Positions 3,298-31,047 of a DNA stretch of 31,047 bases are shown here, piece after piece. Each line of letters starts with the position of its first letter. Positions within the stretch are counted from its first letter, which is position 1. This DNA comes from Chrysophaeum taylorii (Eukaryota > Sar > Pelagophyceae > Pelagomonadales > Pelagomonadaceae). Made by a program: the position numbers and the translations under genes. The DNA lies in the NCBI GenBank assembly GCA_029834535.1, contig JAQMWT010000669.1:35001-66047 (forward strand), written 5' to 3'. Under the pieces are notes generated by a model. It saw nothing but the letters and a program-made list of their open reading frames with translations. It searched no databases and was not told the origin of the DNA.

Positions 3298-3520
3298 CAA
3301 GTGCAGGCCAGTAAGTTCACCTAGTCCCAATCTCTAACCCCAGTGCCCGCTCCGCCTTTAACCTTTGAGTTTACTCTTAAACCCCAGTAAGTTCGGCGCA
3401 AACCCACTCGTGCTCACACCCACTCCCCACTCTCCATTGAGCTCGTCGCTCTCACCCCCGCCAATCTAAGCTGCTTTGATCCGCACACGCCGCTAACCTT
3501 TGAGTTTACTCTAAAACCCC

Positions 3521-3603
3521 CAGTAAGTTCACCTGGTCCCAGTAAGATCATCTCGTCCTAGTAAGTTCACCTGGTCCCAGTAAGCTCACCTGGTCCTAGT
3601 AAG
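3521..3603 (-). repeat. 19-bp minisatellite in Helitron 3' region
   Basis: Four imperfect units of CAGTAAGTTCACCTGGTCC (plus-strand reading) in tandem. The same unit recurs in inverted sense in copy C (23291-23397) and, more sparsely, in copy A (about 460-530). The unit also overlaps the last bases of the element, so the 3' terminus seems to have been amplified inward. Confidence 0.75.
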
Positions 3604-3639
3604 AGCGGCCACCCGAGGACCTCGCCGTAGACGACAGTG

Positions 3640-4170
3640 CGCGTGTAGACGCCGGGAGGGGGCTTATCGGTATTGCGCAGCACGTGTGGGGTAGGGTGGA
3701 GTCGTCGACCCAGAAGAGGATATCCTCGGGGTTGCCGACTCGACAGAGAGTCACGTACAGCTGGACGTGGCAGAAGACGGGCTTGGGCAAGAGGACGCCG
3801 ACCTTGCGGGGCGTCTGCCCCTGGCTCTTGTTGATCGTTTGGCGTCGGCGGGGCTTAAGGGATACTGGTTGGAGGAGCCTCAGCGACACGACACGATCGA
3901 TGATGTCTCGGGTGCCGTTGCAGTGGCCGTGCGACGGGTCGAAGTTGCGAAGACTATAAGCTCACGATCAAAGTCAGCATGCCGTTGGTTGTCAGGGAGT
4001 TAAAAACTCGACTGTAAAGAGCGAGGCGTCGTCTTCCGACCCAACCTAGTCGGCCGAAAAGAACTCCGACGCCTCGTCTCCGGGAAAGGGCGCGGCCATG
4101 CGCGCGTTGTCAGCATCGACAACATCATTTCGACGGGGCGTGAGAATGGCTCGCGCGCCTACCTGATCCT
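3640..4170 (-). pseudogene. Helitron Pif1-like helicase, C-terminal remnant
   Basis: Two blocks of a Helitron Rep/helicase protein can be read in different frames. The first (about 4170 to 4046) gives RAILTPRRNDVVDADNARM, then PGDE and FFSAD, matching the conserved stretch in which an RAIL..P..DV..IN.... block precedes the S.DS motif. The second (about 3890 to 3690) gives TINKSQGQT, VGVLLPKPVF and QLYVTLCRV, the C-terminal helicase motifs. Between them a stretch like FLNSLTTNGM is still visible. No Rep (HUH) domain and no N-terminal helicase motifs are present, and the frame is broken several times, so no active enzyme is made. In life this helicase unwinds DNA during rolling-circle transposition. 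The same two blocks occur in copy C, giving independent support. Confidence 0.85.
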
Positions 4171-4560: not shown

Positions 4561-5021
4561 AAGTTAGGGCTTGAAGCTGACTCACAACCTTGGGTGTTGA
4601 GGGTTTTTAAAGGTCGACTGCTGAGAGAGAGCGGGGTGCGTTCAACAAACTTTCACCGATGCCCTCGCAGGAGCTGTCGAGATGAAGGAGGCGGGCGTGG
4701 AGCTGCAATTGCGAAGGTCCAGCCGCTCGGCTGCGGTGGAAGCAACGAGGAAGCTGCGCGAGGTGGGAACATCGACGAATCCATGCTCGTACCGCCAGCA
4801 ACGCGCACGAAGAGACCGCAGACCGCTGACGGTCGCAGGCGGTCCGGGCCGCGAAAGAGGCCAGGAAGCCGCCGGTCGATGCGAAAATGAGAATTCGGAA
4901 GAGATACGTCATGTTTGACGCAACACCGCCGCCGGGGCAGCACTTCGTCGTGTATCGTCGAGAGGAGAGGATCCTGGAGTTGGACAATGACGGGAAAGTT
5001 GGACGGTCCGACGGTGCCTGG
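4561..5021 (+). pseudogene. Left half of a locus split by the E1 insertion (function unknown)
   Basis: Between the Helitron repeat and the E1 LTR lies about 460 bp of non-repeat DNA. One plus-strand frame is open from about 4830, carries an ATG at 4887 and a second at 4911, and runs straight into the LTR after encoding GRSDGAW. Cutting at the CCTGG that abuts the LTR (5017-5021) and joining the reverse complement of 15938-15699 continues this frame with YHESGVVVDEDEIE and beyond, for well over 100 codons in total. The upstream part (4680-4830) is open in other frames with a stop between, so the locus is probably frameshifted as well. I do not recognise the protein; it could be a cellular gene or another transposon. 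Confidence 0.5.
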
Positions 5022-5344
5022 TATGGCGTCACAGAAAAACCACACCCGACCCCCGGGTGACAAAGGGGGTACTCGCCGACTCGTCCTAGACCTCACTGAA
5101 CGAGGAAAACTCGGACTCGGGGTCGGATATGCTCGCCACACACCTTGCTCACGTTCACCAAGCCTCTCAACAAGATGGAGAGATGGTATATGATAGCAAG
5201 AATCCTACAAGAATGCTGCAAGATACGCTTCTCACGAGGGAGAGGTATGATGTCACTAGGAAAGTAGGACAAGGCGTCCCGTTGAACGGGAATCAAGCCT
5301 CGAGAAGGGAGGGTAAGCCTTAGCGGTCAGGAGTTGCCGCCACA
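5022..5344 (-). repeat. E1 3' LTR
   Basis: About 323 bp, starting TGTGGCGGCAACTCCTGACC at 5344 and ending ...TGTGACGCCATA at 5022. It aligns over its whole length with the LTRs at 14916-15218, 15944-16261 and 28463-28786. The terminus has GACGCC where the other LTRs have GCCGCC. It is bordered on the outside by CCTGG (5017-5021). Confidence 0.9.
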
Positions 5345-5374: not shown

Positions 5375-6050
5375 TCAGCGAGTCCGGCGAGAATCACGAG
5401 CCTTGGCTGAATGAGCATCTCGGGAACGAATCTTCTTGTAGACACGTTCAACGACAGGCTCGGGAACGCGTCCACTACGCAAAGTGAATTTAGGAATCAA
5501 CACATCGATCTCATGCGGGGCGAAGTCGGTGACATAAGGAGTGGTACTGTTGTTGTCCTTGGACTTGTCGGTGAAACTGTGACCGTCCACGTCCTTGTAT
5601 TCCGGCTTAAGCTTGCGAGTAGAGAGATGTGAGGTAGGCTTGTAATAAGAAACCTTTTCATGATGACCAAGATCAGCATAAAAATGCAGAGCGACTCGAT
5701 CATTCACTATAGGGCTCATAAACTTCAGCTACGTAAATCTTCTTTCGCCAATCGGACCGTTTGTTATCTGGAATCCGAAAGACAACGAACTTACGGTGCT
5801 TGTAATCATCCCGGAAGGTCGCCTTGAGTTTGGGCACAGCTCGATCGACCACTGGAGAAACCATCACAGGGGTGATCTGACTGACATGAACACAGCGGCG
5901 TTCAGGAGGAGAATCAAGAGACTCAATCCTGTACGTGACCGGAGACAAGCGTTCCAAAATAACGAATGGACCGCGCCATTCCGAGCTTGTTCTGAAGAAA
6001 AGGGATGTAGAGCAGAACACGTGAACCTTCTTCATACTCCACATCGACAT
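5375..6050 (-). pseudogene. E1 integrase C-terminal region and pol tail
   Basis: Two overlapping minus-strand frames continue the integrase after a frame break near 5980-5923. The first carries SSEWRGPFVILERLSPVTYRI, the GPF/Y-type module that follows the catalytic core in many Ty3/Gypsy integrases, then a basic stretch. The second (from 5719) is a charged tail with no domain I recognise; I see no chromodomain. The tail ends about 30 bp before the 3' LTR. The sequence just before the LTR (CAGGGGAATCC on the element strand) is a weak candidate polypurine tract. Confidence 0.75.
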
Positions 6051-7038
6051 GGTCCGTATTGTAAGCGAGACGTTGTTTACGAAGAGCCTTCTCGCGAGCT
6101 TCGTTCACCATAGCGGTATAGAATTTCAACCTCTCGCGAGTCTCTGCCACAACACCGGAGCGAGTTTTCGGCAGGCGGCGGACATCGAGATCCATGATCG
6201 TATAATCTGTTGGCAATAGAGGCTGCCGGTTAAGACGAAGCATGAAAGGTGAGATCTGAGTTCCCGGAATAAACTTACGATTGTAGCAAAAAGCAATGTA
6301 CTCCGCGAATTCGGGCCAGTCCGCGATCTTGCGGTCCTGAAGACATGCACGGAGGAAAGCCTTAATAAAGCGGTTGACCCTTTCCGCAGGATTAGCATGA
6401 GCATGATACGGAATCGTGGTACTATACCGAACATTAACGAGATGACAAAAATCTTCCATCAATTTGTTGACGAACTCTCCCCCGTTGTCGGTACGAATCC
6501 TCTGAGGTAAAAAACCTTCGAGTAATATATTCGCGACAAAAGACTCGAGGATTGACTCAGCAGTCTTATGGTGCAGTACGTCAAGAATCAAGAAATGATA
6601 AAATGGATCAAAAAAGATGATCAGATACGTCTCGGGACCGGCACTAGGCAAAGGTCCGAACAAATCCATACAAAGGACGGCGCAATCACCATCATACACC
6701 GGTTGCTGAAGAAGACCTGCTCTCTTTGGTTCAGGCGTGCGAGCTTTTTTGCACACTATGCAACCAGCAATATAAGCACCCACCTCATTAGACATGTGGG
6801 GCCACCAAAAAAGTTCAAGTATCGACTGCACTGTACTTTGACGACCCATGTGACCACCATTGAGAGGTGTGTCATGGTACAATCGGATGATGCGCGTCCG
6901 TGAAGTTCGGGGTGCGACTATCATCGGGTGCAAGTCAGGTGCGGCACGGTAGAGAACTTCACCACTTGATAGCGATAATTGGCTCCGTACCGACGAAGAG
7001 AATGGCCCTGAGCCATGCGATAACGAATGTCCTCGCAA
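5923..7038 (-). pseudogene. E1 integrase (zinc-binding and DDE core intact)
   Basis: A 371-codon open stretch containing an integrase zinc-binding module, H55-x7-H63-x29-C93-x2-C96, followed by an RNase H-fold core with D125 (in MDLFGPL), D184 (in RTDNGGEF) and E219 (in NPAERVNR). Spacing is D-x58-D-x34-E by my count, one residue shorter than the usual D,D-35-E. The fragment would join reverse-transcribed DNA to chromosomal DNA. All catalytic and metal-binding residues are present, but it is part of a broken polyprotein: it overlaps the preceding frame at 6921-7038 and the C-terminal module lies in another frame. Residue numbers count from the first codon of the open stretch, which is not a true start. 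Confidence 0.88.
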
Positions 7039-9120
7039 GTAGCATCAGTGATCTGCTCTTTGGCTATCTCTTCCAAAGTCAAATTATCCGGGATCTTGTC
7101 GATGTACTCTTGGTAATCATCGGCATCACGGAAAATACTAGGTTGGGTCTGCAGACGTTGCTTCTGACGTTGTCTCGTAGCATGAGACGTGACCAATTGC
7201 ATCGGATCATCGAGATCTTTCTCTTCCTCCACAAGCAACTCAGTCGTAACAAACGACAGAATGACATGGCACCCAGGTAAAGGTACTCCTTCATCATCGA
7301 CAGGGCGAAGAAGTTCTTGGCACACTAGATACGCGTGGTTCAAGGGTTCACCAAACTCATCCGTCTCGATGACATGATCTATAGGATTGCGAGAGAGACA
7401 GTCAGGGATACTCATTCCCGGCGACTTCCCTGGTTTGTAACCCAATTCAGGATCAAAATTGGCGAGCCGCATCGCCCATCGAGCCAACTGCCCAGACGAG
7501 TGCTTCGCCTTTCGTAAAACGTCAAATTGCGATGATCCGTCTCGAGGATCGTCTTGTGACCTTCAATATAAGAGCGAAAATGCTCAAGAGAAAGAATAAC
7601 GCCAGTAGCTCTAGCCGGCGAGGCTCATAGTTCCGCATCTCTTTCGGCACAGCTCGGCTCCAATACTCAATTACTCGTTCCTCTCGTGTCACCTTGCCGG
7701 TTTCGTCCTTGACTTCCACGAGCTGAAAAAGATACGCGCCCAGACCATCCTTGGAAGCATCCGAGCGGATCTGAAAAGGAAGATCGTAGTCAGGATGATA
7801 AACTCCGCGAGAGTCCACCAAAGCTTCGATGATCGTGTCCCATGCCTTTGGCACTCAGGCGTCCACTCAAACTTAACGCCTTCAAGACACAATCGCCTCA
7901 GCGGCTCCACAATCTTCGAATAATTCTTCACATATCGGCGGCAATAGTTGCTCATGCCGATGAAAGATCGAATCTGGGTCTTCGGGGACGTGTTCGGCAA
8001 CCTACCGGGAATCGGCATCTGCTGCAACGCTTCTAACGTCTTGGGATTCGGCTTCAAGCCTTCCGGAGTCGAAATGTGTCCCAGAAACTCGATTTCATCT
8101 TTGAGGAGGTGGAACTTCGAAGTTCGTCCACTATATCCTCGCTGCGCTAAATGGCACAGCACTTCAGTCAAAACTCGCAAATGTCGGTGGAGTTCATCCG
8201 ATCCCATCATAATATCGTCGACAAACGCGACCAAGTCCTTATACATCCATGTGGACAAATTGCTAGCCATCTGCTTACAGAAGAGAGCTCCTGCTGTTTT
8301 CGCTCCCAGAGGCAAGCGCAAGAAACTATGTGCTCCAAGTGGACTAACCATCGTGACGGCGGCCTGAGCGGCGGCGTCCAAACGCAGGTTGTGGTAACCC
8401 CATCGAATATCAATGCACGTCCGCCAACGGCGCATAGCAAGAAAAGCCCACCATCTTGACGAATATTCGGCCAACTGTCATTGACCAGCTGATCGTTGAG
8501 CTGACGCAAGTCAACTGCAGCACGAAAAGCATTCGACGTCCCGGCCTCTGCTCCCTTCTTAGGCAGCATCAGTACAGGGAATCCCCACGGAGAGTTCGCC
8601 GGTCGGATGACTCCATCGCGACACCACTCAGTGATCTGCTTTCTGAGACACTCGAGCTTTGCTGGCGTCAACCTATAAGGCGTCATCTTGATCGGTCGTG
8701 GGTTTGCGTCTTTAAATCGTAGAGAAACCGGTGGCGAGTCCACGGGTCTCATAATCGGATCAAAAAAGGCCCACGCGTATTGCACGCAGTGGCTCAACAT
8801 CATCTTCGCATCCTCATCCAGATGCGGGTTGTCGGGAATTCCCAGTTCTCGAACAACCTTCTCGACTTCTTCCTTCGTCGGAGTTACGACTTTCATCGCC
8901 TCATTGTCCTTGACGTGCTCCGGAGTCTGCGGTAACGGTACACCGTCCGCGTCGCGCGGCGCATCCTTCCATGGCACATCGAACTTTTCTTCGTATTTGA
9001 AACCTCACCTCAGGGTGGCTCTTATTGATCTTTTCACCTTTGACGCGCACATTCGGCTCGCTCCTTACTTTCGGCTCCTGTTCAGGTTCAGGATCCGGCG
9101 GAACGTCCACTTTGATTGTC
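7039..9120 (-). pseudogene. E1 reverse transcriptase and RNase H (frameshifted)
   Basis: Starting near 9120 (VDVPPDPEPEQEP) and read leftward through several frames. The RT fingers give NSPWGFPVLMLPKKG and FRAAVDLRQLND; palm motif A gives CIDIRWGYHNLRL; then LRLPLGAKTAGALFCKQM; the catalytic box is FVDDIMM, followed by LRVLTEVLCHLAQRGY and the thumb (FLGHISTPEGLKPNPKTLEAL). RNase H gives FQIRSDASKDGLGAYLF, a conserved YEPRRLELLA and an ILETDNR-like block. Frame breaks occur near 9000, near 8440 (between fingers and palm motif A), near 7850 and near 7490. The break near 8440 is also present in E2. A linker (SRNPIDHVIETDEFGEP...) joins RNase H to integrase. The enzyme copied element RNA into DNA; this copy cannot make it in one piece. 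Confidence 0.9.
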
Positions 9121-9257
9121 CGGGGGGCAGCAGAAAAGCATGAGCCGTCCCCGGCGCATCTGTTGGAAGCGGAAGCATAGGGACTTCTGGCGGTTCCCAT
9201 TTAGTGGGATCCTGGAGATCATCTTTGACACCCACTTAACGACACGAGTACGCGTAT

Positions 9258-10240
9258 TTAACAGCGGAATCTGTACGTGACGAAGGTGGTGTCGGAGATT
9301 CGCAAATACTGCTCCAAGGATCGATCTGTCGGGCTCAACGCGGTCGGCAGGACTTCGCCACTTTGGCGGAAACCTCTGGTCACGGAGTTGTGCAGATCGA
9401 CTGCTAAAATCGCAAGAGTGTATGGAGGGACGACAGACGCTAATTGCTTGAACGAATCTGTCTTAGACAAGCTAGCCCAATCATGGTCCAGCGGCATCGT
9501 GAGCAACTCGGCCGTCATCTCGAGAGTCAAAGGCTGAGTGTCCGAGCGATGCGGTCCCAAACGAAGAGGAACTCGCGTAACGGTGTAAGCCGTATCTGTT
9601 GCTTCTCGGGACGAGCCGAGATTATTCAGCTGGAGCAGGTGGCGTTCATGAGCGTAACCTAAAGCTGCAGCAAATTTTGTTGCATATTCGCACATGTCTT
9701 CGGAGCCTCTTGCAAGTGCAGTGGGTGACTGGAAACCAACAATCGCACGCGAGAGCTCATCAAAGTGGGCGTGATATCATGAAAATTGACGACGTACACG
9801 TAAGGGTGTAAGCGCGCTATATAAGAAATAATGGACGCCTCCTGTTCAATCAGCCACATCATGAAGCCAGCCATTTTGCACAGCTTCATCGTCCAATTAG
9901 TGGCCGTAACTCCCCTGCCAACATCTCTGGATGTCAAGTTGCAGAGTGCTGAATGAACGCAGGGTGGAGACGCTATACACATCGACGATGACCATTCCGC
10001 TTCAGGCAAATAAGCCTTGATCAATCGGAGGGTCGAGTCATATCGTCCGCAGAGCGTGTGCTGAACCACAGGTATCTTCGGAAAATTCTTCTGATGAATC
10101 TTGTTGGCAGCTGTTGAAGAGTCAAGAGCAAGGACGACTCGAAACGACGTCCCGCACAACTCATTCGCTCGTTGCAGTCCTAAAGTACTTCCTCCGGCGC
10201 CGCTAAAGAGCATCACAACCTTGCGATACGTGATCGGCAC
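9258..10240 (-). pseudogene. E1 DNA cytosine-5 methyltransferase domain in pol
   Basis: C5-cytosine methyltransferases transfer a methyl group from S-adenosylmethionine to cytosine in DNA. Motif I is VVMLFSGAGGSTLGLQ (SAM binding), motif II region ALDSSTAANKIHQKNFP, motif IV ASPPCVHSALCN with the catalytic Cys codon at 9961-9959, motif VI WLIEQE (Glu of the usual ENV), motif VIII SSRVRLLVSS (usual QxRxR), motif IX QPLTLEMTAELLTMP and motif X LASVVPPYTLAILA (usual GNAVPP). Order is the standard, non-permuted one. The stretch between VIII and IX, where target recognition lies, is only about 60-70 residues. One frame break near 9680, between VIII and IX, separates the catalytic half from motifs IX-X, so this copy is inactive as one protein. 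The first part is continuous upstream with the protease, showing that it is translated as part of the element's polyprotein. Confidence 0.9.
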
Positions 10241-11732
10241 CCAGTGGACCTTTTCAAACCTTCGGCGAATCTCGCCTTCTGTAACTTCTCGGCATTTCTT
10301 TTCCTCCTCGTCGGTTCGTCGGTCGAAATCGTCGTTACCGAGCGATTCTTGACGAGAATTCTTATTCTTATCGGCAGAAGGAGACGCCTTCTGCACCGAG
10401 CTCAAAAGCATCGGTTCGGGAGCCGCATCGCCTTGAGTCAGATGGCTTGCGACCGAAACAGTAAACGATAGGTTGGCCCTGTCATATTCGGCTTCACCAT
10501 CCTTCGTTAACTCGTCGACAGTCTCAACATTCAGCTCGTCATCAAAACGAACAATATCGCCCAAAGCGAGAACTTCACCTTGAGTAATCACGGTCGGCAC
10601 ATCCTGGGTAGAGGAGATCGCCACTCGAGCTGCGAACTTGTCATGATCCTCAGGAGAAGAACACATTCCATCGACTACCCCAAGTTGCTCGTATCCAGAA
10701 GACGTAGCAACGAAAACTTGCCCGGTTTCCATGGGCTCTGAAAGAGCGACTGGCACGCAGTAAGTGCGCCCAGGCTCGACCTTCATCGTGCGCGCAGCAT
10801 AGGCTATCACTTCATAGGCATCGCTGTTCGAACTTTGAGAAGGCGTAACTGTAGGGACTCCCCAAGTCGTCGAAGCTCCCGCTCGTTTCGGCGGTGGACG
10901 CTGGAGGTCTTCAATCTTGCACAAGCGAGCGTAAACGCGGTTCTCAACTGTGCTCAGGCTCTTTTGCATCGCATGGTGCTGTTGCCCATAAACCTGAACT
11001 ACCACGGGGTTGCGCTCATCATAAGTTGTTCTGAACGTCAAAATCGGAGAATCGACTCGTCGATCCTGCACCTTTAACTTCTTGCGCCCATAAGCGACTT
11101 GTGTGCGGAGAAACGCAATGCGATTTCGCGGGTAGTCCACTATGGCTCCCAACACCCGAATATCGCGCGCTCCCAGCAGAAATAGGTGATTAGTATCGGC
11201 CACAATGGCAACCACTGGAACGGCCACGTCGTCCGCGAGCGCAATTCGCAATGCGACCCATTTGTGGATAGTCGTCTTGTTCAATCCTGACCCGTACAGG
11301 GTGCGCTCGACTGGGAGATCGCCTCGGTCTCGTCAGTTTTTCGACCATCCCACGACAAATATAGGAGACATCAGCCATTCCATCCACGCCTAAAGTCGTT
11401 GCGAACTTCGGCCCGTCTCGTCGTCTGTAAATATGACCAACTATGAACGTAAGTGTACCAGGGTCCAGACAACCGATGGTGATGAGGTCTTGCTCGATCT
11501 TTTCCCCATCGCTCGGCGAAAGTGCAGTGTGATGACATCGTATCTCCGGTTTCGCATCGCCCGGCATCTGCATCGTCACCGCTGCCATATCTGGCGTCCC
11601 ACATCTCGCCTCTGAATCTATATTGGCGCTCGCCGCTTCGGCTGCTTCCTCATTCCCCAGTTTCGCTGGCAACAAATTCTGACACTTCTCAATCAGAGGC
11701 ACATATACTTCCTCCTTTACCCCCTCTGACAA
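10241..11732 (-). pseudogene. E1 retropepsin-type protease and linker to DNMT
   Basis: The first half of an aspartic protease is seen near 11412-11335 as PKFATTLGVDGMADVSYICRGMVE, where the usual active site would read DTGA; the Asp remains but the following residues are GMA. The second half, in another frame from 11284, gives FLLGARDIRVLGAIVDYPRNRI, the typical flap-to-helix end of retropepsins (LLG.D.L...GA.ID). E2 has about 18 extra bp between the halves, so E1 has a small deletion plus frameshift here. After the protease, about 250 residues of linker follow without a recognised domain, including the sequence EPGRTYCVPVALSEPMETGQVFVA, a beta-rich stretch often seen between protease and RT in Gypsy elements. 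The protease would cut the polyprotein. Confidence 0.75.
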
Positions 11733-11962: not shown

Positions 11963-14484
11963 ATCAAATCGGACATTCCCGTCCACTTCTCCTCCATCGG
12001 CGCCGCTGTGGTCTGCTCTGCTGCGACCAAAACTGTATCGGCTAAAACATCGGCTAAAACAGTATCGGGGGGCCCCGTAGGAAAAGAAGACGTCGCCCCC
12101 GACGTCAACTCAAAGGGTCTAACGTCATCATCGTGAACTTCCCTGCAAGACATGCACATTGAAGAATGGGGGGACACTGGAACCTGTGGCATGGGTTCGT
12201 CGGTCTCCGAGTCTGAGTCTTCCATTAGCGCGGAGAATCCAAAGTTGCATCTGATATTGCTTCCACCTACGATGTAGAAGGCCACCGAACGATCCGAGCG
12301 TTGTTGGTATTTTGCTCCTGTTGCGAGCGATGGCTGCTCGTCACAGCGGCATCGGCAACATCATCGGAGACTCGGGCGGGGCGCGCCGTCGGGTAAAAGA
12401 CAACGCCCGACGATGGCCGCGCTTCGCATAGAGATTGGAACGCGAAAGTTGCGCTCGAATGTCCCGAACTATCCTGATATCGGCCTCCGTCATATTCGTC
12501 ATCGCGCTGTCGATGACGTCTGCGCCGGCGCGAATTGCGACTAGAGCTCCGGCTATAGCGGCGACGGCGGGCTCGGGCTTGATGTAGGACTATTGGTCTT
12601 TTGATCAAGGCTCTCACTTCGGTGTCGGCGCGACGATCGTCTAGAAGGTGATCGTCCGTCTCGCTGTCGTGTAGAAGACGACTTGCTATCTTTGATGCCT
12701 CTGACCTCGCTCACCATGGTCGCCATTGTGGTTCCAAGCTCGGTGAGGGCCGTTTGTATTTCCGTAGTAGGTTCCGATCCGCGCGTGGCGTGCGCATTAG
12801 ATGCATCGTCACGCTTCTCCCAATCGGAACGCGATATGGGTTGCTTTTTGTATTTCCGAATGCGCTTCCACATCGCACAGTGATAACGGTCCGGATCGCG
12901 GTTGCAAACCACGCGATTTCCGTGTTCATCTTCATCATGGGTGGACCAGAAGTATCCGCACTCCTTGCACGTCTTCTTGCACCACCAAAAAGGATCTCGT
13001 AAGATCAACGGAACCGTATTCCCAGACGGTTTATCCGTCTTGCTTAGCTTGTTGATCGGAAGTCATAGCTCGACCTCCCCGCCCTCGCGGCGGTTTATTT
13101 GCTTTCGGATTGGAGGGGCCTTGGTCTTTCTCCTCCTCCATCGACTTCCGAAAGTCGTTCTCGAGTCGCATAATATTAATAAGCGCCACCATCGACTTAA
13201 AAGTCATGTAACTATCCGGGTGTCCGCTCCTCATAGTCCGCACACGGGTCCGTAAATCCTTGGACGCCAAACCACTGATAAGCTGGTCGATGATATCAAC
13301 GTCATCCATCGTGCGGCTGGACTCGGTACAAAAGGCTAAAGCCTCATTCTGAAATTTGGTACAATACGTTTGTACGTGCCGCTCCCCAGTCTTCTTCGGA
13401 ACTGAAGACTGAGTGACCTTCCGCAGCTTGTCGAGCAGCTCCTGCTGCGTGCTCGGAGGTCGGCAAGTCGATCTAAAACAATCCAAATTCTTATCACAGT
13501 AAGTCTTGTTGAGACGACGGATGCGCCGATCGAGGCTCCATGCTCTTCATCGTCAGCATCCAATTTCAAATAAAATGACGGACCGTGCGGTAGCTCATCG
13601 CAGAGCTCCTCGTATTTCCGCAAATGCTCCTCAAAAATTGGTGCAACGGTATCGCGCAAATGCACCGGTAATAGGTAACGTAATTTCTCGACCGAGTAAT
13701 GGTCATCTGCCAAAGTATGCATCACCGCTGCCGAATCCAGATTGAACTGCCGTTGATCTCGGCCGTCGATGACGAGTTTGAAGTTGTCAGCCTTCAAACT
13801 GGAAGTGGGGCGACGAGATCGGCTCAAGTTGGCCTTCTCGAAGGCGTCCGCAAACGTCTGCGATAATCCCCGTAAAAATTTCGTACCTTCATCTTCAGTT
13901 TCCGCCCTACCCTCAGTCTCCGTATCGACTCGGGGCGGAGGTTCATCCCCCGTTTCAGTGCTCCTTTCCGGTTCAGGCCGCCTCACGGGCGTTTCCGGTT
14001 CGGGCCGACTCACGGGCTGTTCGCGGCTACTCTCACGACGTGCACGTTCGGCTAACAATTCATCTCGCTCACGACGAAGTCGTTCAACCTCCTCATGTAA
14101 GGTCCTCGTTGTCTCGAGCTCCTGCCGCAACGCTTCTTTTAGCAAATTAAGTTCTTGTCGAGCTGCTTCTTCCCTAGCTTCGGCCCTTTCACGGGCGAAT
14201 TGCTCAGCTAGTCGCTCGTTTTCGCGTCGTCTCCGCTCGAGGTCTTCACGAAGTCGACGTCGAGTCACGGATCCGCGCTCAATAGTAGTGCGCTCGCCAC
14301 GGTCCGGGGTCGTTGGACTCATCGGCGAAAAAATTGCTGTTTCTGGAGGCGCTTCAACAGGAGGTAATTCGGTAGCGTCGACTGCCTCGGCCTCTCGTAA
14401 TTCACCTTCCTCGCAGCCGGTCTCAGTGGCGGCGGGAAGCACTGGATGAGATCCTTCCTCACGCACGTCTGCGTCTTCTTCCAT
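11963..14484 (-). pseudogene. E1 gag with coiled coil and Cys/His cluster
   Basis: Starts at the ATG at 14484 (MEEDADVREEG; the same start occurs in E2 at 16692). The first ~85 residues are acidic and Pro-rich. Then comes a long heptad-like coiled coil (LREDLERRRRENERLAEQFA through about RDELLAERARRES), an acidic RPEPE-rich linker and a capsid-like helical region (LDSAAVMHTLADDHYSVEKL..., LLDKLRKVTQ..., IIDQLISGLASKDLRTRV). A nucleocapsid-like part follows with Cys and His spaced CKKTCKECGYFWSTHD...CNRD..RYHC, unlike the common CX2CX4HX4C knuckle, then an Arg/Ser-rich tail and an acidic linker (EDSDSETDEP). A one-base loss near 13528 and further breaks near 13020 and 12590 destroy the frame. 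E2 is broken at different places, so the family once had an open gag. Confidence 0.82.
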
Positions 14485-14891
14485 AATGTACCAAAATATC
14501 GATGAGGAATCTCGAACCAAGTTCGGATTCGATCACTCGAAGCGATGCACGTCGTTAACAATGACGTGATCCGTCGCTGTCAAAACAGCACTCGCGGAGT
14601 TCTTGTCCGCCTGGCAATCCAAAATGCCGTGTGGGTAGCGATCCCACTCGCTAACAGCTTCCGCCGTTCAGCTATACCAAAATCAATCCCGGGTGAATGC
14701 GCTGCGATTTCCAACTCGCGCGCGCGTTCGTCGTCTCTCGGGCCGTACGAACGAAACAATAATCCGCGTATACTCTTCAACGCAACTCGGTCCGCTGGAA
14801 CTCCGCGTGCTTGACCAGGGCACGTGCGTAAATTCGGTCCGCGTAATACAGTGCGTACGGGGCACTCGTTCGTCGGCGACCGATATAGTCG

Positions 14892-14913: not shown

Positions 14914-14915
14914 CG

Positions 14916-15218
14916 TATGGCGGCACAGAAAAACACTCCCGACCCCCAGGTGACAAAGGGGGTACTCATCGACTTGCCCTAGACCTCATTGAACGAGGCC
15001 GACGCGGACTCGGGGCCGGTTAGCCTCGCCACACACCTTGCTCACGCTCACCAAGCCTCTCAACTTGAGGATGGAGAGTCGATTTATGATAGCAAGATAC
15101 GCCTCTCTCGAGGGAGAGGTATGACGGCACTAGGGAAGTAAGAAAATGCGTTCCGTTGAACGGGTATCAAGCCTTGAGAAGGGGAGGTAAGCCTTAGCGG
15201 TCAGGAGTTGCCGCCACA
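14916..15218 (-). repeat. E1 5' LTR
   Basis: About 303 bp, starting TGTGGCGGCAACTCCTGACC at 15218 and ending TGTGCCGCCATA at 14916. It is about 20 bp shorter than the 3' LTR owing to internal deletions (for example around 15095). The outer side is TCTGCCACGG, which does not match the left outer flank of E1. Confidence 0.9.
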
Positions 15219-15943: not shown

Positions 15944-16261
15944 TGTGGCGGCAACTCCTGACCGCCAAGGCTTACCCTCCCTTCTCGAGGCTTGATACCC
16001 GTTCAACGGGACGCCTTTTCCTACTTTCCTAGTGACATCATACCTCTCCCTCGTGAGAAGCGTATCTTGCAGCATTCTTGTAGCATTCTTGCTATCATAT
16101 ACCATCTCTCCATGTTGTTGAGAGGCTTGGTGAACGTGAGCAAGGTGTGTGGCGAGCATATCTGACCCCGAGTGTTTTCCTCGTTCAGTGAGGTCTAGGG
16201 CAAGTCGGTGAGTACCCCCTTTGTCACCTGAGGGTCGGGAGTGTTTTTCTGTGCCGCCATA
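15944..16261 (+). repeat. E2 5' LTR
   Basis: About 318 bp from TGTGGCGGCAACTCCTGACC to TGTGCCGCCATA. Immediately upstream is CCAGG. Within it are GTTCAACGGGACGCC and CTTGCTATCATATACCATC, shared with the other LTRs; the latter contains a possible TATA-like TATATACC or TCATATACC stretch, but the transcription start cannot be placed. Confidence 0.9.
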
Positions 16262-16263
16262 CG

Positions 16264-19063: not shown

Positions 19064-19214
19064 TTCAGTGATATCAACCTTGACCCTTACCCTTCACCCT
19101 CCCTACTCCCCCCTTATTCTCCACTAACGCCATCATATGAAACCAAATGGAAGCAACCGCTCCACCCCAACCAGATCAGCCACATCAACAAGTGGGTGAT
19201 TCCACTTCCTTGAA
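19064..19214 (+). repeat. Nested element 5' LTR (151 bp)
   Basis: Starts TTCAGTGATATCAACC, ends CACTTCCTTGAA. Compared with the 3' copy (after removing the Helitron) I count six differences by eye over the whole length, so the two have diverged modestly since insertion. It is followed by GGTTATGGGCTCCTGGG, in which a primer binding site beginning TGGGCTCC is possible but did not look like a standard tRNA 3' end. Confidence 0.8.
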
Positions 19215-22433: not shown

Positions 22434-22526
22434 TTCAGTGATATCAACCTTGACCCTTACCCTTTACCCTCCCTACTCCCCTCTTATTCTCTACTAGCGC
22501 CATCATCCTTACTACTAATCGACAGA

Positions 22527-23641: not shown

Positions 23642-24602
23642 CTTTGAGTTGACGTCGGGGACGACGTCTTCTCTTCCTACGCCCCCCCCCGAAACGGTTT
23701 TAGCCGATACAGTTTTGGTCGCAGCAGAGCAGACCACAGCGGCGCCGCTGGAGGAGAAGTGGACGGAAATGCCCGATTTGATGGACGAGAAATTGCGAGA
23801 ATCGTCCGAAGAAACGAAGGAGGAAATATGTGTACCTCTGATTGAGGAGTGTCAGAATTTGTTGCCAGCGAAACTTGGGAATGAGGAAGCAGCCGAGGCG
23901 CCGAGCCCACCCGAGGTCACGATGGAAAAAGAGAGAGAGCCACCGGACAAAGAGAACGCGGCGAACGCCAATATAGATTCAGAGGCGAGACGCGGGACGC
24001 CAGAGATGGCAGCGGTGACGATGCAGATGCCCGGCGATGCGAATCCGGAGGGACGATGCCATCATACTGCACTTTCGCCGCGCGACGGGGCAAAGATCGA
24101 GTAAGACCTCATCACCATCGGTTGTTTGGACCCTGGTACACTTAAGTTCATAGTTGTTCATATTTACAGACGACGAGACGGGCCGAAGTTCGCAACGACT
24201 TAGGCGTGGATGGAATGGCTTATGTCTCCTATATTTGTCGTGGGATGGTCGAAAAAAAATGACGAAGGATAATATCATCCTTGACCGAGGCGATCTTCCA
24301 GTCGAGCGCACCCTGTACGGGTCAGGATTGAATTAGACAACTATCCACAAATGGGTCGCATTGCGAATAGCGCTCGCGGACGACGTGGCCGTTTCAGTGG
24401 TTGCCGTTGTGGCCGATACTAATCACCTATTTCTGCTGGGAGCGCGCGACATTCGGGTGTTGGGAGCCATAGTGGAAAACCCGCGAAATCGCATTGCGTT
24501 TCTCCGCACACAAGTCGCTTATGGGCGCAAGAAGTTAAAGGTGCAGGATCGACGAGTCGATTCTCCGATTTTGACGTTCAGAACAACTTATGACGAGCGC
24601 AA
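23642..24602 (+). pseudogene. E2 gag-pol linker and retropepsin-type protease
   Basis: Resumes E2 after the nested element. First comes an acidic linker of about 150 residues (ELTSGTTSSLPTPPPETVLADTVLV...), open to a stop at 24104. The first protease half near 24190-24250 has the same altered active site as E1 (GVDGMA-type followed by VSYICRGM) but is split by frameshifts and an extra run of A at 24250. A second block reads KDNIILDRGDLPVERTLYGSG, then LADDVAVSVVAVVADTNHLFLLGARDIRVLGAIV, the protease C-terminal half. E1 lacks about 18 bp of the middle. A frame break at 24602 separates it from the next part. Confidence 0.75.
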
Positions 24603-24605
24603 CCC

Positions 24606-26524
24606 GTGGTAGTTCAGATTTATGGGCAACAGCACCATGCGATGCAAAAGAGCCTGAGCACAGTTGAGGGCCGCGTCTACGCTCACTTGTGCAAGATTGA
24701 AGACCTCCAGCGTCCACCGCCTAAACGAGCGGGAGCTTCGACGACTTGGGGAGTCCCGACAGTTACGCCTTCTCAAAGCTCGAAAAGCGATGCCCATGAA
24801 GTGGTAGCCTATGCTGCGCGCACGATGAAGGTCGAGCCTGGGCGCACTTACTGCGTGCCTGTCGCTCTTTCAGAGCCCATGGAAACCGGGTAAGTTTTCG
24901 TTGCTACGTCCCCTGGATACGAACAACTTGGGGTAGTCGATGGAATGTGTTCTTCACCCGAGGATCACGACAAGCTCGCCGAGTGGCGATCTCCTCCACC
25001 CAGGATGTGCCGACCGTGATTACTCAAGGTGAAGTTCTCGCTTTGGGAGATATTGTTTGTTTTGATGACGAGCTGAATGTTGAGACGGTCGACGAATTAA
25101 GGAAGGACTGTGAAGCCGAATATGAGAAGGCCAGCCTATCGTTGACTGTTTCGGTCGGAAGCCATCTAACTCAAGGCGATGCGGCTCCCGAACCGATACT
25201 TTTGAGCTCGGTGCAGAAGGCGTCTCCTTCTGCCGATAAGGATAGGAACTCTCGTCAAGAATCGCTCGGTAACGACGCTTTCGACCGACGAACCGACGAG
25301 GAGGAAAAGAAGTGCCGAGAGACTACAGAAGGCGAGATTCGCCGAAGATTTGAAAAGGTCCAATGGCTGCCGATCGCGCATTGCAAGGTTGTGATGCTAT
25401 TTAGCGGCGCCGGAGGCAGTACATTAGGGCTGCAACGAGCGAATGAGCTGTGCGGGACGTCGTTTCGAGTCATCCTTGCTCTTGGCTCTTCAACAGCTGC
25501 CAACAAGATTCATCAGAAGAATTTTCCGAAGATACCGCTGGTTCAGCACACGCTCTGCGGACGATATGACACGACCCTCCGATTGATCAAGGCTTATTTG
25601 CCTGAAGCGGAATGGTCATCGTTGATGTGTATCGCGTCTCCGCCCCGCGTTCATTCAGCACTCTGCAACTTGACGTCCAGAGATGTTGGCAGGGGAGTTA
25701 CGGCCACTAATTTGACGATGAAGCTGTGCAAAATGGCTGGCTTCATGATGTGGCTGATTGAACAGGAGGCGTCCATTATTTCTTATATAGCGCGCTTACA
25801 CCCTTATGTGTGCGTCGTCAATTTTCATGATATCACGCCCACTTTGATGAGCTCTCGCGTGCGGTTGTTGGTCTCCAGTCACCCACTGCACTTGCAAGAG
25901 GCTCCGAAGACATGTGCGAACATACAACAGAAGTTCGCTGCAGCATTAGGTTACGCAGATGAACGCCACCTGCACCAGCTGAATAACCTAGGCTCGTCCC
26001 GAGACGCAACAGATATGGCTTACACCGTTACGCGAGTTCCTCTTCGCTTCGTACCGCACCGCTCGGACACTCAGCCTTTGACTCTTAAGATGACGGCAGA
26101 GTTGCTCACGATGCCGCTAGACCATGATTGGGCTGGGCTGTCTAGGACAGATTCGCCCAAGCACTTAGCGTCTGTCGTCCCTCCAGACACTCTTGTGATT
26201 TTAGCAGTCGATCTGCACAACTCCGTGACCAGAGGTTTTCGCCAAAGTGGCGTCCTGCCGACCGCGTTGAGCCAGACAGATCGATCCTCTGAGCAGTATT
26301 TGCGAATTGCCGACACCACCCTTCGTCACGTACAGGTTCCGCTGTTGAACACGCGTACTCGTGTCGTTAAGTGGGTGTCAGAAGATGATCTCCAGGATCC
26401 CAACAAATGGAAACCGCCGGAAGTACCTGTGCTTCCGCTTCCAACAGATGCGCCGGGGACGGCTCATGCTTCTTCTGCTGCCCCCCCCCCGACAATCAAA
26501 AGTGGACGTTCCGCCGGATCCTGA
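24606..26524 (+). pseudogene. E2 DNA cytosine-5 methyltransferase domain in pol
   Basis: After a linker (with an in-frame TAA at 24891 where E1 has CAA, and a 4-bp loss near 24985), one uninterrupted frame from 24947 to 26524 holds the entire DNMT: motif I (VVMLFSGAGGSTLGLQ, codons 148-163), motif II, motif IV (ASPPRVHSALCN), motif VI (WLIEQE), motif VIII (SSRVRLLVSS), motif IX (QPLTLKMTAELLTMP) and motif X (LASVVPPDTLVILA). The catalytic Cys codon TGC of E1 is CGC (Arg) at 25646-25648, so the methyl transfer chemistry should be lost. Motif II also has Gly for the Asp of E1 (ALGSS against ALDSS). The domain is bounded by a Pro-rich linker with a long C run near 26480-26492, where an indel shifts the frame relative to RT. 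Unlike E1, motifs IX-X are in the same frame as I-VIII. Confidence 0.88.
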
Positions 26525-28444
26525 ACCTGAACAGGAGCCGAAAATAAGGAGCGAGCCGAATGTGCGCGTCAAAGGTGAAAAGATCAATAAGAGCCACCCT
26601 GGGGTGAGGTTCAAATACGAAGAAAAGTTCGATGTGCCATGGAAGGATGCGCCGCGCGACGCGGACGGTGCACCGTTACCGCAGACTCCGGAGCACGTCA
26701 ATGACAACGAAGCGATGAAAGTCGAAACTCCGACGAAAGAACAAGTCGAGAAGGTTGTTCGAGAACTGGGAATTCCCAACGACCCGCATCTGGATGAGGA
26801 TGTGAAGATGATGTTTTGTTAAGCCACTGCGTGCAATACGCGTGGGCCTTTTTTGACCCGATTATGAGACCCGTGGACTCGCCGCCGGTTTCTCTGCGAT
26901 TTAAAGACGCAAACCCACGACCGATTAGATGACACCTTACAGGTTGACGCCAGCAAAGCTTGAGTGTCTCAGAAAGCAGATCACCGAGTGGTGTCGCGAT
27001 GGAGTCATCCGACCGGCGAATTCCCCGTGGGGATTCCCTGTACTGATGCTGCCTAAGAAGGGAGCAGAGGCCGGGACGTCGGTTGCTTTTCGTGCTGCAG
27101 TTGACTTGCGTCAGCTCAATGATCAGCTGGTCAATGACAGTTGGCCGAATATTCGTCAAGATGATGGGCTTTTCTTGCTATGCGCCGTTGGCGGACGTGC
27201 ATTGATATTCGATGGGGTTACCACAACCTGCGTTTGGACGCCGCCGCTCAGGACGCCGTCACGATGGTTAGTCCACTTGGAGCACATAGTTTCTTGCGCT
27301 TGCCTCTGGGAGTGAAAACAGCAGGAGCTCTCTTCTGTAAGCAGATGGCTAGCGATTTGTCAACATGGATGTATAAGGACTTGGTCGCGTTTGTCGACGA
27401 TATTATGATGGGATCGGATGAACTCCACCGTCATTTACAAGTCTTGATTGAAGTGCTGTGCCATTTAGCGCAGCGAGGATATAGTGGACGAACTTCTAAG
27501 TTCCACCTCCTCAAAGATGAAAGCGAGTTTAAGGGACACATTTCGACTCCGGAAGGCTTGAAGCCGAATCCCAAGACGTTAGAGGCGTTGCAGAAGATGC
27601 CGATTCCCGGTACACTGCCGAACACGTCCCCGAAGACCCAGATTCGATCCTTCATCGGCATGAGCAACTACTGCCGCCGATATGTGAAGAATTATTCGAA
27701 GATTGTGGAGCCGCTGAGGCGATTGCGTCTTGAAGGTGTCAAGTTTGAGTGGACGCCTGAGTGCCAAAAGGCATGGGACACGATCAACGAAGCTTTGGTG
27801 GATTCTCGCGGAGTTTATCATCCTGACTACGATCTTCCATTTCAGATCCGCTCGGATGCTTCCAAGGACGGTCTGGGCGCGTATCTTTTTCAGCTCGTGG
27901 AAGTCAAGGACGAAACCGGCAAGGTGACACGAGAGGAACGAGTGATTGAGTATTGGAGCCGAGCTGTGCCGAAAGATATGCGGAACTATGAGCCCCGCCG
28001 GCTAGAGCTACTTGCAGTTATTCTTTCTCTTGAGCATTTTCGCTCTTATATCGAAGGTCACAAGATGACGATCCTTGAGACGGATAATCGCAATTTGACG
28101 TTTTTACGAAAGGGGATGCACTCGTCTGGGCAGTTGGCTCGATGGGCGATGCGGCTCGCCAATTTTGATCCTGAATTGGGTTACAAACCAGGGAAGTCGC
28201 CGGGAATGAGTATCCCGGACTGTCTCTCTCGCAATCCTATCGATCATGTCATCGAGACGGATGAGTTTGGTGAACCCTTGAACCACGCGTACCTAGTGAG
28301 CCAAGAACTTCCTCGGCCTGTCGATGATGAAGGAGTACCTTTACCTGGGTGCCATGTAATTCTGTCGTTGTTGCGACTGAGTTGCCTGTGGAGGAAGAAG
28401 AAGATGGTCGCGACGATCCGATGCAATTGGCCACATCTCACGCT
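26525..28444 (+). pseudogene. E2 reverse transcriptase and RNase H, integrase deleted
   Basis: The N-terminal part (VDVPPDPEPEQEP to DPHLDEDVKMM) ends at a 5-bp insertion near 26815 compared with E1. The fingers (26929-27170) give NSPWGFPVLMLPKKG. After the frame break shared with E1 near 27165, a single 435-codon frame (27180-28487) contains CIDIRWGYHNLRL, FVDDIMM (catalytic Asp pair), thumb, FQIRSDASKDGLGAYLF, RRLELLAVILSLEHF and ILETDNRNLTF of RNase H, with the catalytic acidic residues present. Similarity to E1 ends at about 28444 with MQL-TSHA-like sequence. No integrase follows. Confidence 0.9.
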
Positions 28445-28462
28445 GTCTCTTTCAGTGCCTCT

Positions 28463-28786
28463 TGTGGCGGCAACTCCTGACCGCTAAGGCTTAACCCCCC
28501 CTTTTTTCGAGGCTTGATACCCGTTCAACGGGACACCTTTCCCTATCTTCTTAGTGGCATCATACCTCTCTCTTGTGAGAAGCATTCTTGCTGTATTCTT
28601 GTCGTATTTTTGCTATCATATACCATCTCTCCATCTTGTTGAGAGGCTTGGTGAGCGTGAGCAAGGTGTGTGGCGAGCATATCCGACCCCGCGTCCGTGT
28701 TTTCCTCGTTCAGTGGAGGTCTAGGACGAGTCGGCGAGTACCCCCTTTGTCACCGGTGGTCGGGAAGGTTTTTCTGTGCCGCCATA
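28463..28786 (+). repeat. LTR shared by E2 and E3
   Basis: About 324 bp, TGTGGCGGCAACTCCTGACC to TGTGCCGCCATA. On the left it follows the truncated E2 interior; on the right it is followed by CGTGGTGGAGGACATGAG, the internal start of a new copy. It therefore acts as 3' LTR of E2 and 5' LTR of E3. Confidence 0.9.
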
Positions 28787-31047
28787 CGTGGTGGAGGACA
28801 TGAGATCGTGCGACTACTCGGTCGCCCGACGAGCGAGTGCTGCCGTACGTGTTGTATTGCTTGGTCCGGATTTGTACGTGCGCCCTGATCAAGCACACAC
28901 AACGGAATTCCATTGGACCGGTTTTGCGTTGAGAATATACGCGAACGTTGTTTGTGTTCGTACGATCCGAGTGACGACGAACACGCGTGCGAGTTGGAAA
29001 TCGCAGCGCATTCTCCGAATTGATTTTGGTATAGCCGAACGGTGGAAGCTGTTTAGCGAGTGGGATCGCAACCCACGGGCATTTTGAATTGCCGAACGGA
29101 TTGGAATTCCGCGAGTGCGGTTTTTACAGCGACAGATAGCGTTTGTTTGGAATGAACGTGAATACTTCGAGTGATCGGAGATCCGGACGTTGTTTCGAGA
29201 TTATTGATCGATATTTTGATAATAGTATGGAGATAAACGCAGAACGTGGTGCGTGAGGAACAAACAGAAGAATCTCCTCCAGTTCTTCCCGCCGCCCCTG
29301 ATATAGGCCGCGAGGAAGGTGAATTAAGAGAGGCCGAGGCAGTCGACTTGCTGACGTGCCCCCTGATGTGCCTCCGGATACTGCCATTTTTTTCGCCGTT
29401 GAGTCCAACGACGATTCGGACCGTGGCGAGCGTGTTTACTATTGAGCGCGGATCTGCAGCCCGAAGTGGACTTCGTGAAGACCTCGAGCGGAGGACGTCC
29501 GCGAAAATGAACGATTAGCTGAGCTTTTTGCTCGTGAAAGGGCTGAAGCGAAAGAGGAGGCGGCTCACGAGGAGTTGATATGCTCAATGATGCATTACAG
29601 CAAGAGATTGAGACCTCGAAGACCCGACGTGAAGAGGTTGAACGAATTTTGTCGTGAAACGAGATGGATTGATTAGCCGAACGTACGCGTCGGGAGAGTA
29701 GCCGCGAACGACCGTGAGTCGACCCGAACCGGAAACGCCCGTGAGGCCGCCCGAACCGGAAAGGAACACTGAAACGGGGAATGAACCTCCGCCCCGAGTC
29801 GATACGGAGACGTGAGGGTAGGGCGGACGTTGAGACATGAAGGTACGAAAATTTACGGGAATTATCGCGGGGAATATCGCAGACGGTTGCCAACGCCTTC
29901 GAAAAGGGCAACTCGAGCCGATCCCTTCGACACCACTTCCAGTTTGAAGCCGGATAAACTTCAAACTCGGCATCGACGGCCGAGACCAACGGCAATTCAA
30001 TTTGGATTCGGCGGCGATGGTGCATACTTTAAGCAGATGACCATTACTCGGTCGAGAAATTACGTACCTACTACCTGTGGCATCTACGGGACACCGTTGC
30101 ACCAAATTTTGAGGAACACTTGCAGAAATACGAGGGAGCTCTGCGATGAGCTACCGCACGGTCCGTCGTTACTTGAAATTGGATACTGACGATGAAAAAG
30201 CAGCATGGAGCCTCGGTTCGTCGTATCCGTCGTCTTTAACAAGTCCGTATGCGACAAGATGTTGGGGGGATTATTTTAGATCGGACTTTGTCGACCCTCC
30301 GCGTCACGCAGCATGAGCTTGCTTGAGACAAGCTTCGGAAGGTCCCCCAGGCTTCAGTTCGAAGAAGTCTTGGGATGCGGCACGTCCAAACGTATGTACC
30401 AGATTCCAATATGAAGCCTTGGAGTTGTTTTCCGTGTCCCAGCCGCACAATGGATATGTCTATACCTTGACAGCTTATCAGTGGATTGACATCCAAGAGT
30501 TTGAGGGACCCGTGTGCGGGCGGACTATGAGGAGCGGACATCCTGATATTTTACGTGACTTTTAGTCGATGGTAGTAGCGCTTATTTACGCGGCTCGAGA
30601 ACGACTTGTACACAGTTGATGGAGGAGGAGAAGGACCAAGGCCCCCCCTAATCCGAAATCGAATAAACCGCCGCGAGGCGGTAGGTCCGAGCAATGGCCT
30701 CCCGTCAACAACCAAGCAGATTGTCGGATTGTTGAGCAAAAAACCGTCTGGGAATACTGATCGCTGATCTTGTACGAGATCCTTTTTGTGGGGCAAGAGA
30801 ACGTGCCGCACTGTGGTTCTTCTTGAGCCAATCCATGAATGAGATACCCGGAAGTCGCGTATTTGCAAACCGCTGATCGGATCGTTACCACTGTGCGATG
30901 TGGAAGCGTAATCGTAAGCAGAAGAATCAGCCCATATCGCGGTTTCCCGATTGGGCGAAGCGTGTACGAGCTCTCATGCGAACGGCCACGCACGGATCGG
31001 AGCCTTCTAACGATTTCCAAACGGCCCTCACCGATCTTTGGAACCAC
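28787..31047 (+). mobile_element. Ty3/Gypsy copy E3, 5' part only (continues past window)
   Basis: Begins with a primer binding site bearing at least one substitution (TGGTGGAGGACATGAGA, 28789-28805), then leader and gag sequence collinear with E1 and E2 up to the window end (GGATCGGAGCC...CAAACGGCCCTCACC, corresponding to the gag segment after the Cys/His cluster). Substitutions and single-base indels are much more frequent than between E1 and E2, so this is the oldest or most eroded of the three. Confidence 0.85.
29227..31047 (+). pseudogene. E3 gag, heavily decayed
   Basis: The start corresponds to ATG 14484 in E1 and 16692 in E2. Recognisable pieces in changing frames are EESPPVLPAAPDIGREEGEL, GLREDLERR of the coiled coil, ELCDELPHGPS of the capsid-like region, GPVCGRTMRSGHPD, and, near 30650-30690, NKPPRGG-like sequence. 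More than ten frame changes or stops are apparent, so no product is expected. It runs off the right edge. Confidence 0.8.

Follow-up and report, generated by a model that had tools for sequence, protein, structure and literature searches.

A predicted cytosine-5 methyltransferase domain resides in the polyprotein of a Ty3/Gypsy retrotransposon family of the pelagophyte Chrysophaeum taylorii

Introduction

Is a cytosine-5 DNA methyltransferase (DNMT) that lies inside a long terminal repeat (LTR) retrotransposon a part of the element or a chance neighbor, and what might it do there? This question is raised by a 31,047-nucleotide stretch of the Chrysophaeum taylorii genome (assembly GCA_029834535.1, contig JAQMWT010000669.1, positions 35,001 to 66,047), hereafter the window. 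Two copies of one Ty3/Gypsy LTR family, delimited by self-comparison and designated E1 and E2, lie in the window in opposite orientations. A first-pass annotation made from the letters of the window had described a complete DNMT between protease (PR) and reverse transcriptase (RT), took it to be part of the mobile element and considered that the host might be a red alga. We find that this arrangement is present in both window copies and recurs genome-wide.

DNMTs were reportedly linked to RTs by Iyer and colleagues (2011). Capture of DNMTs by retrotransposons is known from dinoflagellates and a charophyte, with SymbioLINE-Dnmt and SymbioDIRS-Dnmt3 described from Symbiodinium and KnitGypsy-Dnmt3 from Klebsormidium nitens, and two earlier studies had linked DNMTs to RTs (PMC5890265, which like the other papers cited here is drawn on from part of its text). 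Ty3/Gypsy and DIRS elements encoding adenine and cytosine methylases are mentioned jointly elsewhere, stramenopiles included (PMC6338049), and a treatment of stramenopile DNMTs reports none inside an element in the part available (PMC9998398). A further paper, with reference to the 2018 paper PMC5890265, states that LTR Copia elements and DIRS elements hold some DNMT3 members (PMC12344493); ‘Copia’ may be a slip there, because the cited paper, in the part available, has Gypsy. In the literature covered, which excludes most subscription journals, we found no pelagophyte for which LTR elements with a DNMT had been reported.

Results

The methyltransferase is a resident domain of the Gypsy family

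We searched the C. taylorii genome (70.8 Mb, 697 contigs) with a single E1 frame (window 9659-11332, minus strand) that runs from the protease C-terminus through the VIII-like motif of the DNMT. The first-pass annotation had rightly seen one long frame here with motifs IX and X outside it; from stop to stop it is 557 codons long. This frame had 80 same-genome matches (78 of 1261 candidates scored), which form two identity groups (81-98% and 70-72%) and many of which sit in long open frames, the longest of 3067 codons. Genome-wide, degenerate DNA patterns with up to three mismatches found 337 sites for motif VIII, 321 for motif I and 361 for RT, and the reversed-pattern controls gave 0 matches for each of the three.

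Pairing of RT with DNMT sites covered the first 100 RT sites listed, about 100 sites being listed per pattern, all with zero mismatches. A DNMT lies upstream on the same strand in 80 of these 100: in 74 a DNMT site (70) or a match to the 557-residue frame (4) is found 0.9-2.6 kb upstream, and motif I pairs six further RT sites, at distances of 1,824-1,841 bp in five of them and 1,476 bp in the sixth (C68:161). The distance from motif to RT is 1,400-1,412 bp in 50 of the 70 measured pairs. Two RT sites are at contig starts, and 16 were paired with no DNMT site among the matches listed. At C41:30067 and C119:5683 motif I is only about 805 bp upstream of RT (usually about 1,835), so most of the DNMT domain must be missing. 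The missing length is alike at both places (about 1,030 bp), and because of this similarity the two may represent a common variant with a deleted DNMT core. Three RT relatives at places outside the match list of the 557-residue frame (L051, L052 and L053) all carry the DNMT, and among the RT sites other than the 16 unpaired ones we saw no DNMT-less element with a clean PR-RT junction, the observation that the first-pass annotation had named as refuting its reading.

A natural copy, L029 on contig C5, is a single 3063-codon frame in which piecewise Pfam searches gave the order PF00145, RVT_1, RT_RNaseH, H2C2 and rve, with the DNMT starting at residue ~1440 and RVT_1 at ~1997, so that the DNMT is in frame with pol. 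The order RT-RNase H-integrase that marks Ty3/Gypsy elements is found in L029 and E1, and terminal repeats in E1 and E2.

Selection was estimated as Nei-Gojobori dN/dS between subfamily A (the window type) and subfamily B (the L029 type), leaving out the window copy; the A set keeps both members of the pairs L015/L033 and L024/L034, which means that two copies may be represented twice. The A-B median was 0.07 for the DNMT (91 pairs), 0.03 for RT (10 pairs), 0.10 for RNase H (2 pairs), 0.11 for the protease region (71 pairs) and 0.19 for the PR-DNMT linker (80 pairs). The DNMT is under purifying selection, weaker than that on RT and stronger than that on the protease region and linker. Within subfamily A the DNMT ratio was 0.25, with a range to 1.80, as expected because copies decay after insertion.

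Given the DNMT upstream of 80 of the 100 listed RT sites and this purifying selection, the DNMT belongs to the mobile element as a resident domain and is widespread in the Gypsy family. That a host DNMT came to lie beside a retroelement by chance or through an assembly artefact is refuted: damage to both window copies is all that speaks for it, and against it stand hundreds of sites on many contigs and the near-constant spacing of motif and RT. Accidental adjacency had already been judged unlikely from the window.

The window copies E1 and E2

E1 is ordered as gag-like frame, protease remnant, linker, DNMT, RT, RNase H and integrase, all on the minus strand, and E2 has the same order up to RNase H. 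Positions in the window are as follows.

14914..15218, minus: E1 5′ LTR, ~305 bp, starts TGTGGCGG; self-blastn, 88% identity to the E1 3′ LTR
13336..14532, minus: E1 gag-like open reading frame (ORF), 398 codons, charged and coiled-coil-like by eye, zero Pfam matches above cut-off; putative gag by position
11352..11387, minus: E1 protease active-site-like motif VDGMADVS (usual: DTG/DSG)
11138..11179, minus: E1 protease C-terminal motif LLGARDIRVLGAIV
10229..10948, minus: E1 PR-DNMT linker; tblastn with the L029 linker, 62.5%
9182..10231, minus: E1 cytosine-5 methyltransferase domain, SPPC kept, frame broken between VIII-like and IX-like motifs
10187-10222, minus: E1 motif I
9947-9970, minus: E1 motif IV, SPPC
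9833-9856, minus: E1 VI-like motif, WLIEQE
9734-9757, minus: E1 VIII-like motif, SRVRL
9423-9530, minus: E1 IX/X-like sequence, in a different frame from the other DNMT motifs
7866..9001, minus: E1 RT, two pieces; RVT_1 (PF00078) 50.6 bits on ORF 7689-8477
7062..7848, minus: E1 RNase H, in pieces
5387..7065, minus: E1 integrase, H2C2 zinc domain and rve core
5021..5344, minus: E1 3′ LTR; self-blastn
15944..16262, plus: E2 5′ LTR; self-comparison
24206..24606, plus: E2 protease remnants; VDGMA (at 24206) and the PR C-terminus do not share a frame
24663..25375, plus: E2 PR-DNMT linker
25385..26413, plus: E2 methyltransferase domain, motif I to X-like sequence in a single frame (ORF 24800-26524)
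26607..27749, plus: E2 RT
27747..28373, plus: E2 RNase H
28460..28787, plus: E2 3′ LTR, 91% identity to the E2 5′ LTR

Both copies are dead, by different damage. The E1 frame breaks after the VIII-like motif, with the catalytic-type motif-IV cysteine kept. E2 has SPPR for SPPC at motif IV and has thus lost the catalytic cysteine, and no integrase match was found between its RNase H and 3′ LTR. The independent damage noted on first pass is therefore genuine, and the statement that E2 shares the arrangement of E1 holds for the order and for the DNMT motifs in one frame; it does not extend to the protease remnants, which lie in other frames, to the cysteine or to the integrase.

In the protease region a retropepsin-like C-terminal motif was identified by eye, and VDGMADVS recurs in L029 (residue 1051), L030, L052 and L033. 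The D-T/S-G signature of aspartic proteases was not found in these copies, which have VDGM instead, and Pfam gave no protease match in window ORFs or L029 pieces.

E2 is interrupted at window 19136-23562 by about 4.4 kb between 80-bp direct repeats (98%). This insertion carries an 819-codon frame (19365-21824), and part of it is similar, inverted, to window 3380-4154. After the E2 3′ LTR, window 28463-31047 holds another gag-like copy, the third, which runs in the same direction as E2 and is 78% identical to the start of E2; this suggests a tandem array with a shared LTR. The sole host-like gene noticed in the window is a frame at 501-2522 that resembles 2-isopropylmalate synthase (LeuA) by eye.

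The Gypsy-borne domain is a diverged, predicted methyltransferase

To characterize the domain we used alignment A1, which comprises 16 stop-free copies of 26 rows and spans three subfamilies; L032, L021, L050, L047 and L016 were dropped for an internal stop, L035 and L022 because they are split, and L015 and L024 because they duplicate L033 and L034; the window copy is also excluded. FSGAGG and SPPC are invariant in all 16 rows, the glutamate of WLIEQE is present in 15 (lysine in L026), and both arginines of RVR are present in 16 of 16, the last two sites being assigned by eye. We take the first two sites to be motifs I (FxGxGG) and IV (with the catalytic PC), and the last two to be candidates for motifs VI (ENV) and VIII (QxRxR), for which profile comparison gave no support.

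A match to PF00145 (cut-off 22 bits), proposed on first pass as the check on this domain, was missed by the long window ORFs (19.6 and 18.3 bits) and appeared with the domain alone, the first A1 row scoring 24.9 bits and 15 of 16 rows reaching E<=0.01. Longer pieces gave 22.7 and, for an overlapping piece, 18.6 bits in L029, and 24.8 bits in L033. Profile comparison by hhalign with 28 DNMT2 proteins out of 120 listed (alignment A3) gave a probability of 96.6 (E 5.6e-10) over 78 columns spanning motifs I-IV with the PC cysteine aligned, against 1.8 for the reversed profile and at most 2.8 for ten column shuffles. The probability was 26 against a Dcm profile of 76 bacterial loci plus the phage query (80 loci; 79 with a frame of at least 270 aa) and 10 against the host’s own DNMT2 alone. 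PHROG DNA-methyltransferase models matched at E ~1e-6 in the motif-I region only. The only C5-methylases matched by the Gypsy profile in the PDB at E<=1 were three DNMT2 chains, weakly (best E 0.059), and no Dnmt3 chain was among the matches at that threshold. Viral contig scans gave 32 and 110 pattern matches and no relative.

DNMT2 is the tRNA-Asp C38 methylase family. The Gypsy domain resembles it in that DNMT2 is its best profile match, through motifs I to IV, and differs in being part of a polyprotein, in its very long branch (below), and in the absence from A1 of both the CFT motif of the target recognition region, invariant in 28 of 28 rows of A3, and the QP.TR context after PPC. From these comparisons we judge the Gypsy domain to be a diverged cytosine-5 methyltransferase whose motifs I-IV are statistically supported. 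It is likely complete, as the first-pass annotation had it, although only motifs I-IV have the backing of profile comparison; motif VI is non-canonical and the IX/X-like sequence is not significant.

The host and its own methyltransferase genes

The host has a DNMT2-like gene on C634, identical (100%) to CTAYLR_008533 of Chrysophaeum taylorii, and a DNMT5-type gene on C621 with PF00145 followed by SNF2 in one frame. C. taylorii belongs to the Pelagophyceae, Stramenopiles (NCBI taxonomy). A red-algal host is therefore rejected on the identity of the C634 protein. We found no phycobilisome family in the assembly, which is weak evidence given that the plastid usually carries these genes. The 84 light-harvesting matches, which include exon pieces, were judged by eye to be of chlorophyll a/c type. 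The C. taylorii genome paper gives 71 Mbp in 702 contigs, and no word starting with ‘transpos’ occurs in its main text (PMC10366177).

A second family of Ty1/Copia-type elements carries a Dcm-like methyltransferase

PF00145 had 57 matches in the genome, all elsewhere than the window-family copies, the best two being the host genes on C634 and C621. As extra copies of the window family these matches were rejected, since they lie in other places, two are host genes and 13 of 13 examined belong to a second family. The count for that family rests on 13 of the 55 non-host matches, in 12 loci (L003-L008, L037-L042). All 12 loci have a different DNMT adjoining a protease-like region, with an integrase in 7 of 12 and RT in 4 of the 6 loci of 10 kb (the 3.4-kb loci are too short for RT). 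L037 (C96:60001-70000; element L037:3096-8951) has a 1952-codon frame with RVT_2 and rve (rve below cut-off) and is thus of Ty1/Copia type, and its DNMT sits between a protease-like region (IDGGAS, pol residue ~82) and the integrase. Both LTR superfamilies have glycine after the aspartate of the protease-like active site (VDGMAD in Gypsy, IDGGAS in Copia), where threonine or serine is usual.

The Copia-borne DNMT (alignment A2, 7 rows) has PCQ and ENV, and PF00145 matches all 7 rows at E<=0.01 (first row 35.2 bits). It is like bacterial and phage Dcm (hhalign probability 93.3, E 2.8e-7, motifs II-VIII), a profile that the Gypsy-borne domain fits poorly. Against the DNMT2 profile A2 gave 15.5, and against the Gypsy DNMT profile 0.7, that is, no similarity. 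Its nearest PDB matches are bacterial-type C5 methylases, weak (best E 0.022), and a protein search with the Copia domain found no relative at E<=0.001 among 7999 scored. Its dN/dS was 0.16 (28 pairs, range 0.11-0.79). Between DNMT and integrase, L037 pol residues ~600-950 form an unassigned region under weaker purifying selection (dN/dS 0.23, 12 pairs).

A 31-row tree, which contains no DNMT1, DNMT3 or DNMT6, places the Gypsy domain with DNMT2 (94/88, not starred) on a very long branch (2.8); the Copia domain joins Dcm and the host DNMT5 through a weak branch (78/44). A single clade of Gypsy and Copia is not rejected (p-AU 0.21). The case for independent capture is therefore built on element class and profile affinities and not on tree topology. 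On those affinities, independent capture of the Gypsy and Copia DNMTs appears the better reading.

CpG content of the elements

If the element DNMT left lasting CpG marks, a CpG footprint might be expected. Eight Gypsy loci had an observed/expected CpG ratio of 1.18-1.36, compared with 1.26-1.43 for six loci of host genes and 1.04 for the leuA-like part of the window; the Copia family was mildly low, with 1.00-1.02 in four loci. C-to-T differences at CpG relative to other C were 1.45 in Gypsy A, 0.92 in Gypsy B and 1.22 in Copia, and by context they were highest at CG in the DNMT regions of Gypsy A, at CHH in B and at C before T in Copia. Across the eight loci and subfamilies A and B, CpG is not depleted in the Gypsy family, and any excess of transitions at CpG is mild. 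These figures argue against CpG methylation that is both heavy and persistent on the integrated Gypsy copies, and are compatible with transient cDNA methylation, other contexts, or RNA.

Discussion

The earlier finding is real; it has become stronger in copy number and selection, weaker as to ‘complete’, and was wrong about the host. What the DNMT does for its element is a matter of graded likelihood. We give an even chance to the reading that the pol-borne DNMT methylates the element’s own nucleic acid around reverse transcription. The domain would be released from the polyprotein by the element’s protease and packaged in the particle, where it would use S-adenosylmethionine (SAM) to methylate cytosines of the element’s genomic RNA, the primer tRNA or new cDNA, during or just after reverse transcription and to the element’s benefit. 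Lasting CpG methylation on integrated Gypsy copies would be unlikely.

Several observations weigh against this reading. Catalysis, SAM binding, expression and PR cleavage are predicted only, and with VDGM rather than DTG/DSG in the protease, polyprotein processing is an assumption. The missing CpG decay may also reflect a lack of activity or good repair, and the A-B dS (about 1.8, with medians of 1.1-2.1) is near saturation. Within the domain the VI-like site is E-Q instead of E-N, and the confident profile match stops at motif IV, with VI, VIII, IX and X placed by inspection. With NCBIfam dcm the domain scores 18.1 bits, below the cut-off of 100.65. The IX/X stretch LEMTSELLTMP..LASVVPP falls in the right register of the Dcm profile with a probability of 0.1, within the range of 20 shuffles (0.1-1.7), and Pfam found a methylase in 0 of 4 Gypsy pieces when given the C-terminal part alone. 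A protein search with the Gypsy domain found 0 relatives at E<=0.001 among 5978 candidates, which were proteins of 0.55-1.75 times the length of an 874-aa piece, full polyproteins being outside its scope.

The domain could instead be a de novo CpG DNA methyltransferase that methylates integrated or retrotranscribed element DNA, silencing or protecting it. Retrotransposon DNMTs with de novo CG methylation have been reported (PMC5890265), the catalytic residues are conserved in A1, the host DNMT5-type gene could maintain CG marks, and subfamily A shows the mild 1.45x excess of CpG transitions. We nevertheless think this unlikely, as Gypsy CpG content resembles that of host genes, subfamily B has no such excess, and the family is unlike SymbioLINE-Dnmt, for which CG depletion is reported (PMC5890265). 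A DNMT2-like enzyme acting on RNA, either the primer tRNA or packaged element RNA, would fit the missing CpG decay, the profile preference for DNMT2 over bacterial Dcm, the DNMT2 chains in the PDB, weak as these matches are, and the grouping with DNMT2 in the tree. Against this are the lack of CFT and QP.TR, the low probability with the host’s own DNMT2 alone, the long Gypsy branch, and a tree of limited membership that leaves a Gypsy and Copia clade standing; we hold such an enzyme to be decidedly less probable still. The methylase fold might also be retained in the polyprotein for a role other than catalysis, such as nucleic-acid or SAM binding, or as a spacer, as the atypical VI-like and C-terminal motifs and the lost E2 cysteine could suggest. 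E2 is, however, dead in other respects also, and the motif-IV cysteine and both VIII-like arginines are invariant in the 16 A1 rows across three subfamilies, which makes this very improbable.

Returning to methylation around reverse transcription, a wider form of it would cover both families: two unrelated LTR superfamilies may have captured different C5 methylases, DNMT2-like and Dcm-like, at a post-protease position, both under selection and neither with a strong CpG-decay footprint, and these could modify RNA or nascent cDNA inside the replication particle, as a convergent, element-encoded step, rather than write lasting CpG methylation. We regard this as tentative and rather doubtful, and the lower CpG of the Copia loci relative to host genes weighs against it.

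A DNMT-bearing Gypsy element was already known in KnitGypsy-Dnmt3, which, like the C. taylorii Gypsy family, is a Gypsy LTR element with a cytosine DNMT within Pol, purifying selection and key residues kept (PMC5890265). Compared by description only, the two differ in that the Dnmt3 class is reported there and DNMT2 appears nearest here, that the KnitGypsy-Dnmt3 repeats are DIRS-like per the figure legend while the C. taylorii Gypsy element has direct terminal repeats, and that the hosts are Klebsormidium nitens and a pelagophyte (PMC5890265). SymbioLINE-Dnmt and SymbioDIRS-Dnmt3 likewise carry a DNMT within a multicopy retrotransposon, with Ka/Ks mostly <0.2; they belong to the LINE and DIRS classes, in contrast to LTR Gypsy and Copia in C. 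taylorii, and SymbioLINE is CG-depleted where the C. taylorii Gypsy family is not (PMC5890265). The words ‘red alga’ and ‘rhodophy’ are absent from the text of that paper. Because the nearest matches are to DNMT2 and not to the Dnmt3 class reported for Klebsormidium, it is plausible that the Gypsy DNMT represents a further, possibly independent, capture.

The several hundred Gypsy sites and the twelve Copia-type loci suggest that DNMT capture recurs in stramenopiles, in both main LTR superfamilies, and the selection data indicate that the DNMT gives the element a gain. The parallel Copia-type family and the absent CpG loss in the Gypsy family raise the interest of the finding. The missing CpG decay in the Gypsy family casts doubt on the common view that such elements durably methylate their own integrated DNA. 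The question of what a retrotransposon gains from a methyltransferase becomes testable in C. taylorii, whose 71-Mb genome has been assembled and published and includes a DNMT5-type gene.

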